This document shows positions 23,047-28,552 of a DNA stretch of 64,000 nucleotides, one piece after another (the stretch's first letter is position 1; each line of letters opens with the position of its first letter). The stretch is from Gemmatimonadales bacterium (lineage in GTDB: Bacteria; Gemmatimonadota; Gemmatimonadetes; Gemmatimonadales; GWC2-71-9). The notes below the pieces were generated by a model. That model was given only the letters and a program-made list of their open reading frames with translations. It searched no databases and had not been told where the DNA came from. Location of the stretch: the NCBI GenBank assembly GCA_019637315.1, contig JAHBVU010000005.1, positions 62,001 through 126,000 of the forward strand, read 5' to 3'. The position numbers and the translations under genes are program-made.

Positions 23047-24384
23047 TCAGGCGGCGGAGAAGAACTCCTGATGGAGTGCCTTGACCGCGGCCGGCCCGTC
23101 CTCTTCGCGGACCACGAAGGTGACGTTGATCTCCGAGGCTCCCTGCGAGATCACCTCAATGTTGACGTCGCGCACCGCATGAAACAAGCGCGCCGATAGT
23201 CCTCGGCTGCCTCGCAAATCGACGCCGATGACCGCCACGATGGCTCGACCATCGAGGACCGTCACGGTGCCCAGGGCCTGGAGGTCTCGCAGTAGGCCGG
23301 TCCGCTCGGTGCTGCCGTCGATGGTGACGGAGACATTGACTTCACTCGACGCGAGCACATCGACCGCCACGCCATGGTTGGCAAAGACACCGAACAGCTG
23401 CTGGAGGAACTCGACCGCGCCAAGCCGCCGGGGCGCCCGGACGTTGATGATGGTGATGCCGCGCTTCCAGGCAATCGAGCGCACCGGCGAGTTGCCAACG
23501 AAGGTCGGCCGCGCGCCCGCTACGATGCGTGTGCCCGGCCGATCAGGCGCAAACGAGTTGAGGACCCAGCAGGGAATCCCCGCATCCACCAGCGGCGACT
23601 GGGTTGCGGGGTGCAGCACCTTGGCGCCGAACGCCGCGAGCTCGGCCGCCTCATGGTAGCTCGCTTCTGCCAGCAGGTGCGCATCCGGCACGATCCGCGG
23701 ATCGGCGGAGAGAATGCCGTCGACATCGGTCCAGATCTCGACGCGCTGCGCATCGAGCGCAGCGCCCAGCAGTGATGCGGTGTAATCGGACCCGCCTCGG
23801 CCCAGGGTGGTGGTCTGACCATCCGCCGTGGCGCCGATGAATCCTTGCGTTACCGGCACCGTGCCCGCTTCGGTCAACGGCGGGATGATTTGCCGGGCGC
23901 GACGCCGGATCTCGTCGAGCTGTGGTGCGGCCTTCGTGAACCGGGCATCGGTTACGACCACATGGCGCGCGTCGACCCAGCGACTGGGCACCCCTGCGGC
24001 CTCGAGCGCAGCGGTCACGAGGCGCGAGCTCCAGAGTTCGCCGTGGCTCACCACGTGGTCCGACTCGAACGGGCGCCAGTGGCTGCCGGCACGAACGAGG
24101 AGCCATTGCCGCAGGGCGCTGACATCCTCCTCGATGCGGCCGATCACCGCAGGGGGGAGAGCCAGCTCGGCAGCGACCGTCTGATGGCGTTCCAGAATGG
24201 TGGTGAGCCGATTGTCGATCGTGGCGCCGGCGTGTTCGAGATCGAGCAGCGCGTCGGTCATCCGCGCCAGCGCCGATACCACGACGACCGGCCGGTCCTC
24301 GCGACGGGAGGCAATGATGCTCACCAATCTCTTGATGGCAGCGGCATCGGCGACCGAGGTGCCGCCGAACTTGGCGATGATCAT
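23047..24384 (-). CDS. lysC: Aspartate kinase
   Basis: 445 residues, monofunctional. N-terminal kinase motif AKFGGTSVADA; substrate and nucleotide region with TTLGRGGSDYTA near 205; two ACT domains at the C-terminus (about 310-445, beginning INVRAPRRLGAVEFLQQLFG and VAVIGVDLRGSRGLSARLF), which in the family give feedback control by Lys or Thr. It phosphorylates aspartate, the first step to lysine, threonine, methionine and isoleucine. It overlaps the asd gene by 4 nt, so the asd leader described below should control both. Confidence 0.96.
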   Translation of the reverse strand: MIIAKFGGTSVADAAAIKRLVSIIASRREDRPVVVVSALARMTDALLDLEHAGATIDNRLTTILERHQTVAAELALPPAVIGRIEEDVSALRQWLLVRAGSHWRPFESDHVVSHGELWSSRLVTAALEAAGVPSRWVDARHVVVTDARFTKAAPQLDEIRRRARQIIPPLTEAGTVPVTQGFIGATADGQTTTLGRGGSDYTASLLGAALDAQRVEIWTDVDGILSADPRIVPDAHLLAEASYHEAAELAAFGAKVLHPATQSPLVDAGIPCWVLNSFAPDRPGTRIVAGARPTFVGNSPVRSIAWKRGITIINVRAPRRLGAVEFLQQLFGVFANHGVAVDVLASSEVNVSVTIDGSTERTGLLRDLQALGTVTVLDGRAIVAVIGVDLRGSRGLSARLFHAVRDVNIEVISQGASEINVTFVVREEDGPAAVKALHQEFFSAA

Positions 24385-25436
24385 CGCGCCACGATCCCTT
24401 CGCTGACCAGGAGCTCGGCGTTCTGAATCGTGGCGCCTGCCGCGCCGCGGACGGTGTTGTGGCTCAGCACGACAAAGCGGATGTCGAACACGGGGCAGGG
24501 GCGAATCCGGCCGACCGTTGCCGTCATGCCGCGACCCCGCTCGATGTCGAGCCGCGGCTGCGGGCGATCAGGGCGGTCGTCGACTACGACCGGGAACTCC
24601 GGCGTCGAAGGAAGGGCCAGAATGCGGGGGTCGGGGCGCCAGGACGCCAGCGCCTCGCGAACCGCCTCCGGCGTCACCCGCTGCTTGAAGCCGATCGACA
24701 CCGTTTCGGTGTGCCCATCGATGACCGGAACGCGGTTGGTGTGCGCGCTGACGAGCACCGCCGCCTCGCTGATTGCGGTGCCGTCGAGCCGTCCCAGGAT
24801 CTTTCGGGTTTCCCGCTCGACTTTTTCCTCCTCGCCGCCGATGTAGGGAACCACGTTACCGCTGATGTCGAGCGAAGCAACACCCGGCCACCCGGCGCCG
24901 GAGATGGCCTGCATGGTCGACACGACGAGGCGGTCGATTCCGAACTGTGCGTGCAGGGGCGCCAGCGCGAGAACGAGTCCGGTGGTGGTGCAGTTCGGAT
25001 TCGCAACGATCGCACCCGGCCAGCCGCGCGCCGTGCGCTGATGTGGCAGCAGGCCGAGATGGTCCGGGTTGATCTCCGCAACCACGAGCGGCACATCGGG
25101 ATCCATCCGAGTCGGGCTGGCATTGGTGACGATCACGACGCCGGCCTTGGCCCAGATCGGCTCGATCGTGACTGCGGCCTGGGTATCGAGCGCCGAGAAG
25201 GCGAGTGGGACGTCGACGGCGACCGTGCTCGACTGGATGACCAGCTTGCCGATCCGCTCCGGCAGCTCGGTCGATTCACGCCAGCGAACCACCTCGGCGT
25301 AGGGACGACCGGCGCTCGCATCGGAGGCCGTGAGCACCGCGACTTCGAACCAGGGATGGTTGTCCAACAGGCGAATCAGCTTCTGGCCAACGGTGCCGGT
25401 CGCACCAAGAATCGCAACGGGTATGCGGGACGCCAC
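24381..25436 (-). CDS. asd: Aspartate-semialdehyde dehydrogenase
   Basis: 351 residues from GTG 25436, chosen because GAGGAG stands 7 nt upstream and the protein then begins with the Rossmann strand VASRIPVAILGATGTVGQ. A longer frame to 25496 would translate through the terminator hairpin. Active-site Cys is in VANPNCTTTG and the catalytic His region in SAHTNRVPVI. The residues SGAGWPGVASLDISGNVVPY place it with the archaeal/fungal-type subfamily. It reduces aspartyl phosphate, the second step of the aspartate pathway. First gene of asd-lysC. Confidence 0.96.
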   Translation of the reverse strand: MASRIPVAILGATGTVGQKLIRLLDNHPWFEVAVLTASDASAGRPYAEVVRWRESTELPERIGKLVIQSSTVAVDVPLAFSALDTQAAVTIEPIWAKAGVVIVTNASPTRMDPDVPLVVAEINPDHLGLLPHQRTARGWPGAIVANPNCTTTGLVLALAPLHAQFGIDRLVVSTMQAISGAGWPGVASLDISGNVVPYIGGEEEKVERETRKILGRLDGTAISEAAVLVSAHTNRVPVIDGHTETVSIGFKQRVTPEAVREALASWRPDPRILALPSTPEFPVVVDDRPDRPQPRLDIERGRGMTATVGRIRPCPVFDIRFVVLSHNTVRGAAGATIQNAELLVSEGIVAR

Positions 25437-25450
25437 AAGAACGCTCCTCG

Positions 25451-25487
25451 AAAATGAAAAGCCCCGCGCTCGTTCGAGGCGCGGGGC
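25451..25487 (-). terminator. Intrinsic terminator in the asd leader (attenuator)
   Basis: Reading on the minus strand, GCCCCGCGC (25487-25479) and GCGCGGGGC (25469-25461) make a perfect 9-bp GC stem with a 9-nt loop, followed by TTTTCATTTT. It ends 15 nt before the asd start codon, inside the transcribed leader and not after a gene, so it is positioned as an attenuator. Confidence 0.85.
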
Positions 25488-25515
25488 GTTGGACAATCCA
25501 GTCTGGTTACTTGCG

Positions 25516-25614
25516 TCAGTCTGTGATGTTCGCGCCGCGCCGGCTGCACATGGTCGTGCCGCCCTTCGTCATGAAGGTCGTGGACTTCGTGCCGGTGCGC
25601 TTGGTTGCGAACAT
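25516..25614 (-). CDS. Thr/Lys/Met-rich leader peptide of asd-lysC
   Basis: A 32-codon frame from ATG 25614 to TGA 25518-25516. Of 32 residues nine are Thr (4, 7, 9, 12, 13, 16, 20, 21, 31), three Lys (5, 10, 17), three Met including the start (1, 15, 22) and one is Ile (30). Thus about half are aspartate-family amino acids, the products of the pathway it precedes. It begins MFATKRTGTKSTTFM. No strong ribosome binding site is visible upstream, a weak point. Composition, position 29 nt before a terminator, and possible alternative pairings argue for a thrL-like control peptide. Confidence 0.75.
   Translation of the reverse strand: MFATKRTGTKSTTFMTKGGTTMCSRRGANITD
25532..25600 (-). promoter_or_regulatory. 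Possible anti-terminator and pause pairings within the leader
   Basis: GCGCGGCGC (25540-25532, leader codons 25-28) differs at one position from GCGCGGGGC, the 3' arm of the terminator. It could therefore pair with the terminator's 5' arm (25487-25479) as an anti-terminator. Upstream, GCGCACCGGC (25600-25591, codons 6-8) can pair with GCCGGCGCG (25544-25536) with one mismatch, occluding the anti-terminator. These are the mutually exclusive structures expected of ribosome-mediated attenuation. Confidence 0.6.
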
Positions 25615-25646
25615 GGCCGTCAAGCTAGTGAACGGACTCTCAGGCC

Positions 25647-25665
25647 GCAAGAGCCCCCCTCTTGC
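25647..25665. other. 7-bp hairpin upstream of the leader peptide
   Basis: GCAAGAG (25647-25653), five C, CTCTTGC (25659-25665). It lies about 33 nt upstream of the leader peptide start on the minus strand, so it is in the 5' untranslated part or at the promoter edge. Role unknown. Confidence 0.5.
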
Positions 25666-25753
25666 GCGATTGGCGGCCGCGCGTTAGCGTTGAGGGACAA
25701 TTGTTGGCTCGTGGCAATTTGCGGCATATTGCGGCCACGCTAAACAAACGCTA

Positions 25754-25811
25754 AAAAGCCACGCGCTCGCGTGTCTTTTGGCACCCGGGCGATTTTTGTT
25801 TGCCGGGTGCC
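25754..25811 (+). other. Two tandem hairpins upstream of thrC
   Basis: First: AAAAG-C-CACGCG (25754-25765), 2-nt loop, CGCGTG-T-CTTTT (25768-25779). Second: GGCACCCGG (25780-25788), a 14-nt T-rich loop, CCGGGTGCC (25803-25811). They abut each other and end 37 nt before the thrC start. They could be a terminator/anti-terminator pair or 5' stabilising structures; no leader peptide is seen on this strand. Confidence 0.5.
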
Positions 25812-25848: not shown

Positions 25849-27102
25849 TTGACCGTCGTTTCGCTGGAAGCTGCCACTCAGCCGGTTCCCCTCGTTTGCG
25901 GCCATTGCGGTGTCTCGCATGAGCCGATTGCCCAGGCAGTCTGTCCGGAATGTCTCGGACCCCTCGAGCCCTACTACGATCCGAGTCGGCGTTTGCCGAG
26001 CCGCGGGGAGATCGCGGATCGGGCGCCTTCGCTCTGGCGTTACCGCGAATGGCTCCCGTTTCTGGGCGAGCCGACCTACTCCCTCGATACCGGCTTCACG
26101 CCGCTGGTCGAAGCGCCCCGGCTCGCCGCGCTGCTCGGCGTGGCCCGGGCCTGGGTCAAGAACGACACGGTGGCGCATCCGACCCTGTCGTTCAAAGATC
26201 GGGTCGTTGCCAGCGCCATCAATGCCGCCGCCGGACTCGGCCTCACCACCATCGGTTGCGCTTCGACCGGCAACCTGGCCATCGCGGTGGCTGCGCATGC
26301 GGCCCGCGCCGGGATCCCGGCCTGGGTGCTGGTGCCCGAGACGCTCGAGCCCGCCAAGATCCTCGCCTCGGCAGTGGCCGGCGCTCGGGTCCTCAAGATC
26401 AAGGGCAACTACGATGACGTGAACCGGCTCTGTGCTCAGCTGGCTGATCGCTATGCCTGGGGCATCGTCAACGTCAATCTGCGCCCCTACTACGGTGAGG
26501 GTTCCAAGACGGTTGCCTTCGAGATTGCGGAGCAGCTCGGCTGGCGGCTGCCGACGGCGGTCGTGGCGCCGCTGGCAGGCGGCTCGCTGCTGTCGAAGCT
26601 TTACAAAGGCTTCGGCGAGTTCCGCGCGGCTGGCCTGGTCGACGATCCGGCGCCGCGACTGTATGGCGCCCAGGCGTCAGGCTGCTCGCCCATCGTCAAT
26701 GCGGTCGAGAGCGGCGCCACGACGATCACCCCGGTGATTCCGAATACGATCGCCAAGTCACTCGCGATTGGCGCGCCGGCGGACGGCGCCCGGGCGGCCC
26801 AGTGCATCCGCGACAGCGGCGGCTGGGCTGCGGCCGTGTCCGATGAGGACCTGATCAAGGCGATCCGGATCCTGGCCGAGACCACCGGTGTCTTTACGGA
26901 AACGGCAGGCGGCGTCACCGCCGCCGCGGCGCAGGCGCTTGCTGCAAAAGGGCACTTCAAGGCGGATGACGAGGTCGTCATCTGCGTCACGGCGCACGGG
27001 CTCAAGACGCCCGATGCCGTGTCACCCGACGTCTTCGACATTCCCGTGGTCTCGAGCAAGCTGGGCGAGGTCGCGAAGGTCGTGGACGCGTACCAACACT
27101 AG
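25849..27102 (+). CDS. thrC: Threonine synthase (PLP enzyme, zinc-ribbon type)
   Basis: 417 residues from TTG 25849, preceded by GGAGAGAG; a longer frame from 25771 would read through the upstream hairpins. An N-terminal zinc ribbon carries CGHC and CPEC. The PLP lysine is in HPTLSFKDRVV (about 107-117), with the phosphate-binding CASTGNLAIAVAAHA and GSLLSKLYKGF following. It converts O-phosphohomoserine to threonine. It lies divergent from asd-lysC. Immediately downstream are a sulfur-carrier protein and its activator, so an alternative reaction using a protein thiocarboxylate (compare CysM/CysO) cannot be excluded. No hom or thrB in the window. Confidence 0.88.
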   Translation: MTVVSLEAATQPVPLVCGHCGVSHEPIAQAVCPECLGPLEPYYDPSRRLPSRGEIADRAPSLWRYREWLPFLGEPTYSLDTGFTPLVEAPRLAALLGVARAWVKNDTVAHPTLSFKDRVVASAINAAAGLGLTTIGCASTGNLAIAVAAHAARAGIPAWVLVPETLEPAKILASAVAGARVLKIKGNYDDVNRLCAQLADRYAWGIVNVNLRPYYGEGSKTVAFEIAEQLGWRLPTAVVAPLAGGSLLSKLYKGFGEFRAAGLVDDPAPRLYGAQASGCSPIVNAVESGATTITPVIPNTIAKSLAIGAPADGARAAQCIRDSGGWAAAVSDEDLIKAIRILAETTGVFTETAGGVTAAAAQALAAKGHFKADDEVVICVTAHGLKTPDAVSPDVFDIPVVSSKLGEVAKVVDAYQH

Positions 27103-27118
27103 AGAACGGAGTACTACC

Positions 27119-27394
27119 ATGGCTGTTACCATCACGCTTCCCACCGTTCTCGCGCGTCACGCCGGCGGTCTCAAAGCTCACACGGTTGCCGGCGCCACCC
27201 TGGGCGAGGCGCTCGGTCACGTGACCCGTGATTATCCTGAACTCGGTCGTCGGCTCGAGCAGGCGACCGATCCGGCCAACGCGTTCGTGACGATCTATGT
27301 CAACGACGAAGATGCTCGCTTCCTGAGCGGACTCGACACCCCGGTCAAAGATGGCGACGACATCAGTGTCGTGTCGGCCATCGCGGGGGGCTAA
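27119..27394 (+). CDS. MoaD/ThiS/CysO-like sulfur-carrier protein
   Basis: 91 residues from ATG 27119 (GGAG 8 nt upstream). A beta-grasp fold with the essential C-terminal Gly-Gly (VVSAIAGG), the site that is adenylated and turned into a thiocarboxylate by a MoeB/ThiF-type enzyme. The matching activator is encoded 3 nt downstream. Starting MAVTITLPTVLARHAGG, it resembles the CysO/MoaD group, in which ThiS-like, molybdopterin and cysteine-synthesis roles all occur. Position after thrC rather than after molybdopterin genes favours an amino-acid sulfur role, by inference. Confidence 0.85.
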   Translation: MAVTITLPTVLARHAGGLKAHTVAGATLGEALGHVTRDYPELGRRLEQATDPANAFVTIYVNDEDARFLSGLDTPVKDGDDISVVSAIAGG

Positions 27395-27397
27395 GCC

Positions 27398-28552
27398 ATG
27401 GCATCGGTCGCTCCGCGAGCGGCTGGCACGCTGAGCCAGGACGAACTGGTTCGCTACAGCCGCCATATCATCCTGCCGGAAGTCGGGCTTGCCGGGCAGG
27501 AACAGCTCAAGAAGGCGCGCATCCTCGTCGTTGGCGCCGGTGGGCTCGGGTCGCCGGTGGCGCTCTACCTCGCCGCGGCCGGGGTCGGTCATCTCGGTAT
27601 CGTGGATTTCGATACGGTCGATGCCTCGAACCTGCAGCGCCAGATTCTGCACAGCACGAGCACGGTCGGTCAGTCGAAGCTCGACTCCGCCGAGGCGCGC
27701 CTGCTCAACCTGAATCCGTACACCAAGCTCGAACGCTACGACACCCGACTCTCGGCCGACAACGCCCTCGAGATCATCGAAGGGTATGACGTGGTGGTCG
27801 ACGGAACCGACAATTTCGGTACCCGGTACCTGGTCAACGATGCCTGCGTGCTGACGGGTGTGCCAAACGCCTACGGCAGCATCTTCCGGTTCGAGGGTCA
27901 GGCCTCGGTCTTTGCGACGAAGGATGGCCCGTGCTATCGATGTCTCTTCCGGGTGCCGCCGCCGGCGGGTGCGGTCCCGAACTGCGCCGAAGGTGGCGTG
28001 CTCGGTGTGCTGCCAGGTCTGGTCGGCACGATTCAGGCGACCGAAGCGATCAAGCTCGTGCTCGGCATCGGCCGGCCGCTGATCGGTGAGCTGCTGCTGG
28101 TCGACGCCCTCGACATGCAGTTCCGCCGGCTCAAGGTGCGGAAGGACCCGAACTGCCCGGCCTGCGGTACGCGTGAGATCAAGGAGCTGGTCGATCTCGA
28201 CGTGGCCTGCGAAGCCCCGCCTGCCAAGTCCGGCGTGCGCGACATCTCGGCGGCTGACCTCGACGCCAGGCGGAAGCGGGGCGATAGCTTCTTCCTGCTC
28301 GATGTGCGTGAGCCGCATGAGTGGGCCATCGCTCGGATCGAGGGGGCCGAGCTGATTCCCCTTGGTGAGGTGGGTCGGTCGCTGGAGCAGATTCCGCGCG
28401 ATCGTGAGGTCGTCGTCTATTGTAAGGGCGGAGTGCGGAGCTTGCAGGCTGCCGAGCAGTTGGTGGACGCGGGATACACGCAAGTGACCAACCTGTCGGG
28501 CGGGATCCTCGCTTGGCGGAGCGACGTGGATCCCTCCCTGAGCCGGTACTGA
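27398..28552 (+). CDS. MoeB/MoeZ-type adenylyltransferase-sulfurtransferase
   Basis: 384 residues. The ThiF-type E1 domain (about 1-250) shows GxGxxG in VVGAGGLGSPVALYLAAAG, the DxxxxNxxRQ-like DASNLQRQIL, Asp in DNFGTRYLVND, and zinc ligands in CYRCLF and CPACG. The C-terminal rhodanese domain (about 275-384) has the active-site Cys loop CKGGVR. MoeZ-like fusions both adenylate the C-terminus of a MoaD/CysO-type carrier and transfer sulfur to it. Last gene of the thrC unit. It ends head-to-head with the convergent M20 peptidase gene. Confidence 0.92.
   Translation: MASVAPRAAGTLSQDELVRYSRHIILPEVGLAGQEQLKKARILVVGAGGLGSPVALYLAAAGVGHLGIVDFDTVDASNLQRQILHSTSTVGQSKLDSAEARLLNLNPYTKLERYDTRLSADNALEIIEGYDVVVDGTDNFGTRYLVNDACVLTGVPNAYGSIFRFEGQASVFATKDGPCYRCLFRVPPPAGAVPNCAEGGVLGVLPGLVGTIQATEAIKLVLGIGRPLIGELLLVDALDMQFRRLKVRKDPNCPACGTREIKELVDLDVACEAPPAKSGVRDISAADLDARRKRGDSFFLLDVREPHEWAIARIEGAELIPLGEVGRSLEQIPRDREVVVYCKGGVRSLQAAEQLVDAGYTQVTNLSGGILAWRSDVDPSLSRY

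Follow-up and report, generated by a model that had tools for sequence, protein, structure and literature searches.

The asd-lysC operon of this Gemmatimonadales genome (G000) begins behind a short threonine-rich reading frame and an intrinsic terminator, which raises the question of whether these parts work together as an attenuator and, if so, which amino acids they report on. Features of the locus and the leaders of its relatives make it very probable that the asd-lysC leader is a ribosome-mediated transcription attenuator sensing charged threonyl-tRNA. Coordinates are positions in the window, that is, the whole 64,000-nucleotide stretch of DNA analysed; asd-lysC lies on its minus strand.

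Organisation of the asd-lysC leader

The leader ORF (translation MFATKRTGTKSTTFMTKGGTTMCSRRGANITD*) holds nine Thr, three Lys, three Met (start included) and one Ile codons, with tandem Thr at codons 12-13 and 20-21, a composition found exactly as the original prediction had described it. Behind it, the anticipated terminator (25487-25461, GCCCCGCGC-CTCGAACGA-GCGCGGGGC) and its T-tract are both present, with the correction that 14 nt, not 15, separate the end of the T-tract from the asd GTG. The proposed antiterminator core, GCGCGGCGC (25540-25532), is identical to the terminator 3' arm GCGCGGGGC at eight of nine positions, as claimed. The product of asd matches TIGR00978 (asd_EA, 434.7 bits) above cut-off. 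The parts of the locus are collected in Table 1.

Table 1. Features of the asd-lysC leader region of G000, listed in the direction of transcription
Feature	Window position	Strand	Remarks
-35 element TTGCGG, leader promoter	25645..25650	-	TTGCGG-N17-TAGCTT, identical spacing in G093
-10 element TAGCTT	25622..25627	-	ends 7 nt before leader ATG
Leader ORF, 32 codons, MFATKRTGTKSTTFMTKGGTTMCSRRGANITD	25516..25614	-	counterparts in G093, G092, G089
Segment 1, putative anti-antiterminator, can sequester segment 2	25591..25600	-	segment 1:2 pairing in full-length minimum-energy fold
Thr codons 20-21, last tandem (predicted) stall site ahead of segment 2	25552..25557	-	
Segment 2, putative antiterminator, within ORF 3' end	25530..25542	-	duplex with terminator 5' arm
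Intrinsic terminator stem-loop	25461..25487	-	5' arm 25487-25479, 3' arm 25469-25461; in 4/4 genus members
T-tract TTTTCATTTT	25451..25460	-	read from sequence
Shine-Dalgarno GAGGAG of asd	25444..25449	-	read from sequence
asd, aspartate-semialdehyde dehydrogenase, GTG start at 25436, 351 aa	24381..25436	-	
lysC, aspartokinase, overlaps asd stop	23047..24384	-	NF006570 and TIGR00657 above cut-off

The leader mRNA is probably leaderless, because no Shine-Dalgarno lies between the -10 box and the leader ATG in any of the four genus members that carry the leader, and because the -10 box stands 7-8 nt ahead of that ATG in all four (as TACCTT in G089). We infer that the first transcribed base coincides with the ATG or lies no more than about two bases from it.

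In the proposed mechanism, the peptide would be translated from an RNA that starts in this way. When threonine is plentiful, the ribosome would reach the stop codon and cover segment 2, and the terminator would form before asd. When threonine is scarce, it would stall on the Thr runs, keeping segment 1 covered and segment 2 free, whereupon segment 2 would seize the terminator 5' arm, a pairing predicted by folding, and RNA polymerase would continue into asd-lysC. Without translation, segment 1 is predicted to pair with segment 2, and the terminator to form.

Statistics and folding of the leader

Comparison with shuffled sequences addresses both the ORF and the pairing. An ATG ORF equally rich in Thr occurs in 0.2% of leader-region shuffles of G000, and in 0.05-0.5% of shuffles per genome across the genus. 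On the two strands of 864 kb of G000, 283 terminator-like sites were counted, and two of them show Thr enrichment at p<1e-4, one being the asd leader and the other a weak site with a TGATGTTT tail. Paired at its best with the terminator 5' arm, the ORF of G000 forms a duplex of -21.9 kcal/mol, a value attained by 0.95% of dinucleotide shuffles, and the complementarity between the ORF 3' end and that arm is attained by 1.6% of codon-order shuffles. By genome, the complementarity stands at 0.0095 against shuffles in G000, 0.0065 in G093 and a borderline 0.055 in G092, and is not significant in G089. Folding of the whole leader is mildly better than that of shuffles (z -1.7).

The full-length minimum-energy fold of G000 consists of the terminator together with the segment 1:2 helix, in which the arm 25599-25591 pairs with segment 2, in keeping with the earlier suggestion that an upstream arm could sequester the antiterminator. 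Upstream pairings in the full-length folds of G092 and G093 differ from the segment 1:2 helix of G000.

To gauge the influence of the ribosome, its footprint was masked at one codon after another and the RNA folded with the terminator 3' arm left off. When the A site lay on a Thr codon, as far as about codon 16-21, the antiterminator was retained at a pairing probability of about 0.7-1.0 in the four leaders (0.88-0.89 at Thr codons 20-21 of G000), as foreseen for a ribosome held on threonine; the exception is G089, where the last Thr, codon 18, gave 0.31. With the ribosome further on, the antiterminator falls in G093 and G089, and with the ribosome near the ORF end in G000 and G092 the terminator arm still pairs long-range upstream at about 0.5-0.8. 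In RNA lacking the terminator 3' arm, the antiterminator forms also when the ribosome is still a long way upstream; since the truncated RNA prefers this state, basal termination would have to rest on the kinetics of the 1:2 helix.

Conservation within the genus

Six genomes of the genus were compared, four of which keep asd, one of them (G089) as a broken remnant. All four have the Thr-rich leader together with its terminator and an antiterminator-like segment, G089 in the weakest form. The leaders of G093 (MYPTATKKTTTKTAPTKGGKTMCGLRGAVETS), G092 (MTTATMRKTTTTTAMHGGDSRHGAAR) and G089 (MFSYSPSMTTTTMRATMTGGRGNGRY) are each followed by a terminator of the form GCCCCGCGC...GCGCGGGG and preceded by a promoter of the type TTGNNN-N17/18-TAGCTT (TTGTCA-N18-TAGCTT in G092, degenerate in G089). 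Thr accounts for 9/32, 9/32, 8/26 and 6/26 residues in the four leaders, which vary in length and in their non-Thr residues while keeping the Thr runs, the start-to-promoter spacing and the terminator. The expected comparison of related leaders thus bears out a conserved Thr-rich ORF but not covarying stems, the terminator stem being identical in the four genus members except for its outermost base in G089.

In G093, asd-lysC carries the leader even though the thrC-like gene is found on a separate contig, beside a different neighbour; the leader therefore belongs to asd-lysC.

The remnant in G089 (C4:240000-244500, L115) consists of an asd that breaks off near codon 150 and continues in frame into the downstream fpg; lysC has been lost, and the Thr leader still stands upstream. 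Its T-tract and antiterminator are the weakest of the four, as expected of decay. In G090 and G091, whose assemblies are possibly incomplete, homoserine dehydrogenase is kept and no asd or aspartokinase match exceeds cut-off.

Leaders in Chloroflexota and Thermomicrobia

Among 80 named relatives of the asd product, the closest comes from a Vicinamibacteraceae MAG, and a Gemmatimonadota-named genome is among the nearest. Two of the 80 proved to carry comparable leaders: a Sphaerobacteraceae genome (L008) has the Thr leader VRHFVITITGMTMTTTAGTRSEVVD and a terminator before asd, and a Chloroflexi genome (L013) has the Thr leader MSNVSIRFIQITTTTTTFEKPLR and a terminator before lysC-asd-hom. When the classes of these two were sampled and the regions upstream of lysC or asd scanned, Thr/Met-rich leaders appeared at 15 of 94 loci, preceding lysC in many Anaerolineae and asd in relatives of the Sphaerobacteraceae (a family now filed by NCBI under Thermomicrobiota); MKSVCFTMSMTTTTSRFSVRNLCLD, VMMTTTGMMTTGWRNGRGDVRRMV and VRMTGRVTTTTTATRRAGVRSGSP are examples, and more were found outside the 94. 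The background of the scan, taken from 800 kb of G000 and not from Chloroflexota/Thermomicrobia genomes, was 4 of 665 terminator-like sites. The trait is patchy, many of the sampled loci having no such leader.

Complementarity between the ORF 3' end and the terminator arm exceeds that of shuffles in these leaders, with a Fisher combined p of 5e-8 when related leaders are treated as independent. Segment 2 changes along with the terminator arm (CGCGAGGC / CGTGAGG / GGCCGGGGG) and mostly starts 27-36 nt before the ORF end outside the genus, compared with 27-28 in G000. Masked folding of six of these leaders kept the antiterminator at a plateau on most Thr/Met codons and brought it near zero just beyond, except that the value in L296 is close to zero already on the last two Thr codons. 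Three asd-linked leaders outside the genus have no clear antiterminator (p>0.3). Recurrence of leader, terminator and antiterminator throughout the asd-bearing members of the genus and in Chloroflexota/Thermomicrobia supports the thrL-like reading that was originally put forward.

The rest of the order and the second lysC

Elsewhere in the order, 40 asd loci drawn from further genera and families were without a Thr leader, and so were 20 longer operon-upstream stretches. Upstream translations place asd elsewhere in the order usually behind an M20-peptidase-type gene, and behind other genes too; in G049, asd, lysC and dapB are adjacent. The leader probably arose in this genus, because asd elsewhere in the order sits in operons without one. 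As far as gene order can be read, asd-lysC is split from the lysine operon in this lineage and carries the Thr leader. The leader is confined to loci at which asd-lysC no longer belongs to the ancestral lysine operon, and so provides an example of the origin of an attenuator.

G000 has a second lysC (C4:178579-179919 (-), L165), which heads a dapB-dapA-dapD operon (the dap genes lie in L215, their names taken from translations). It is preceded by a leader of its own, MTPLSAVAHRIAALTSALKAGAKKRGPKCGPCGGHSA, with the Lys cluster KAGAKKRGPK, a promoter TTGTGT-N17-TAAGCT 7 nt before the ATG, and probably a leaderless start. The terminator CCCGCCGCACGAAATCGTGTGGCGGGTTTTTTT comes directly ahead of the lysC ATG, and there is also an antiterminator-like segment. 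In masked folding, the antiterminator stood at 0.55-0.84 with the A site on Lys codons and at 0.04-0.23 just beyond; compared with shuffles, the duplex falls short of significance (p=0.10), and the Lys enrichment is modest (P=0.012). This leader is a good lead as a candidate Lys attenuator. Upstream DNA of the hom genes of the genus, whose copies seem non-orthologous, held no obvious Thr leader on inspection.

Which amino acids are sensed

The four genus leaders have 112 internal residues in all, of which 32 are Thr where 6.7 would be expected; judged by sequence, Thr is the clear main and invariant signal. Met, with 8 of 112 against 2.5 (P=0.003) and counts per leader of 2, 1, 2 and 3, is a likely second input. 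Lys reaches 9 of 112 against 2.8 (P=0.002), and Ile 1 against 5. The earlier idea that the operon reads several end products at once is therefore supported in part: Met, which is found in all four leaders and is common in Chloroflexota, probably contributes, Ile is nearly absent, and Lys was rejected as a conserved signal, since its counts by genome are 3, 5, 1 and 0 and it is rare in Chloroflexota leaders.

The fullest version of that idea, in which Thr, Met and Lys are sensed jointly and shortage of any end product induces asd-lysC, is possible, if on balance somewhat doubtful. The enrichment of both Met and Lys in the pooled genus leaders speaks for it, as do the Met-rich runs that recur in Anaerolineae leaders (e.g., MTTTMMTTTP, FTMSMTTTTS and TGMMTTG), except that Met content was among the criteria by which the Chloroflexota leaders were picked, so that Met is no independent test among them. 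The uneven distribution of Lys tells against joint sensing, stalls at single codons are weaker than at runs, and the separate Lys-containing leader of the dap operon in the same genome argues that Lys is read elsewhere.

Alternative readings of the leader

A reading without any attenuation would take the stem-loop for a plain intrinsic terminator of upstream transcription and the Thr-rich ORF for chance, asd-lysC being expressed from a downstream promoter or by read-through. GC-rich terminators of such sequence are indeed common in high-GC genomes, and further terminator-like sites lie in the region; nevertheless, this reading is very unlikely in view of the rarity of ORFs of such Thr content in shuffles of each genome, the fact that four diverged genomes keep the leader, the terminator and the promoter spacing together, and the recurrence of the plan in another phylum. 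A consensus scan also found no promoter-like site from terminator to asd, although the same scan missed the TTGCGG/TAGCTT promoter.

Leader translation might instead act on asd-lysC translation or on Rho access and not through the intrinsic terminator. Control by uORFs and by Rho is known in mycobacteria, and the T-tract abuts the asd Shine-Dalgarno, where structure could also affect initiation. The presence of a complete intrinsic terminator with a matching antiterminator, and the recurrence of the terminator in relatives, make this reading just as improbable as the plain terminator.

Control of asd-lysC by a metabolite riboswitch or T-box (lysine, SAM or tRNA-Thr), as is known for such genes in Firmicutes, is extremely unlikely: 25434-25665 matches no Rfam family even at E<=1, including on the minus strand the T-box, lysine and SAM riboswitch models, and the SAM-II-like aptamer close by lies on the opposite strand and belongs to the divergent operon. 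Attenuation by a ribosome on Thr codons thus remains the preferred reading.

Relation to known systems

One close known counterpart is the enterobacterial thrL-thrABC attenuator (RF00506), which likewise combines a short Thr-rich leader, an intrinsic terminator and a competing antiterminator, and which controls aspartokinase at the head of the Thr pathway. Enterobacterial thrL uses Thr and Ile. The system described here belongs to a different phylum, would drive asd-lysC and not thrABC, pairs Thr with Met/Lys in place of Ile, and has no Shine-Dalgarno, its leader being probably leaderless; the predicted signal pair, Thr with Met, is thus unlike that of enterobacteria. The Rfam Thr_leader model RF00506 has no match at gathering in the window, and none at E<=1 in the four leader loci. 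The Thr leader has been listed among Rfam attenuator motifs possibly of gamma-proteobacteria origin (PMC3766115).

The probable start at the leader ATG has a parallel in trpL of Sinorhizobium meliloti, an alphaproteobacterium, where the attenuator RNA begins at the leader-ORF ATG (PMC7298713); the codons there are Trp, the regulated gene is trpE(G), and the start was shown experimentally, while here it is deduced. The Anaerolineae and Sphaerobacteraceae-relative leaders resemble those of the genus in the order of parts, in the aspartate-pathway entry genes they precede and in the placement of segment 2, and differ in having other terminator and peptide sequences, more Met and almost no Lys.

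Most of the amino-acid leader attenuators on record are from Proteobacteria, and some are from Actinobacteria and Firmicutes (PMC2965389; PMC3766115). The authors of PMC2965389 remark that beyond Proteobacteria and Actinobacteria leader-peptide attenuators are rare; one instance is that of the His leader peptides before hisS in Firmicutes, which concern another amino acid and synthetase genes (PMC2965389). In the open literature, most subscription papers being outside reach, nothing was found on Thr, aspartokinase or asd leader attenuators, and nothing on point for leader peptides of Chloroflexi or Gemmatimonadetes, in agreement with the original statement that no such leader was known for this gene pair or phylum. 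As far as searched, the kind of system is known, while the gene pair, the phylum, the signal mix and the probable leaderless start are new.

A broader proposal is tentative and comes close to evenly balanced: that attenuators responding to Thr and Met, not Ile, are widespread on lysC and asd in Chloroflexota/Thermomicrobia and in at least one genus of Gemmatimonadota, where they would be leaderless, and that the asd-lysC Thr leader and the Lys-containing leader of lysC-dapB-dapA-dapD split the pathway between two end products. A Gemmatimonadota Thr attenuator, together with the Thr/Met plan of Chloroflexota, would extend this kind of control to phyla with little-known aspartate-pathway regulation.

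The divergent operon and neighbouring elements

On the plus strand, a SAM-II-like riboswitch aptamer (RF00521, window 25701-25774) lies upstream of an operon at 25849-28552 (+) that encodes a ThrC-like PLP enzyme, a ThiS-family sulfur carrier and a ThiF/rhodanese protein. The aptamer is conserved throughout the six genus members; its score passes the gathering threshold in two of them (42.2 bits) and falls slightly short of it in G000 (34.8). SAM control suggests that the 'thrC' product is homocysteine- or cysteine-forming rather than Thr-forming. The argument that Thr control would be natural for asd-lysC because its neighbour is thrC is weakened by the SAM-II-like aptamer and the ThiS/ThiF genes beside that gene, and also by the ThrC-like paralogues in G000.

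A further hairpin, GGCACCCGG...CCGGGTGCC (window about 25778-25809 (+)), separates the aptamer from the ThrC-like start; it varies in sequence among genus members and may be an expression platform. In the Sphaerobacteraceae genome, L008 1-390 (+), ahead of 472-1593, holds a SAM riboswitch and, behind it, a T-box-like element (below gathering score); the two precede a metX-like gene that adjoins the asd with the Thr leader.
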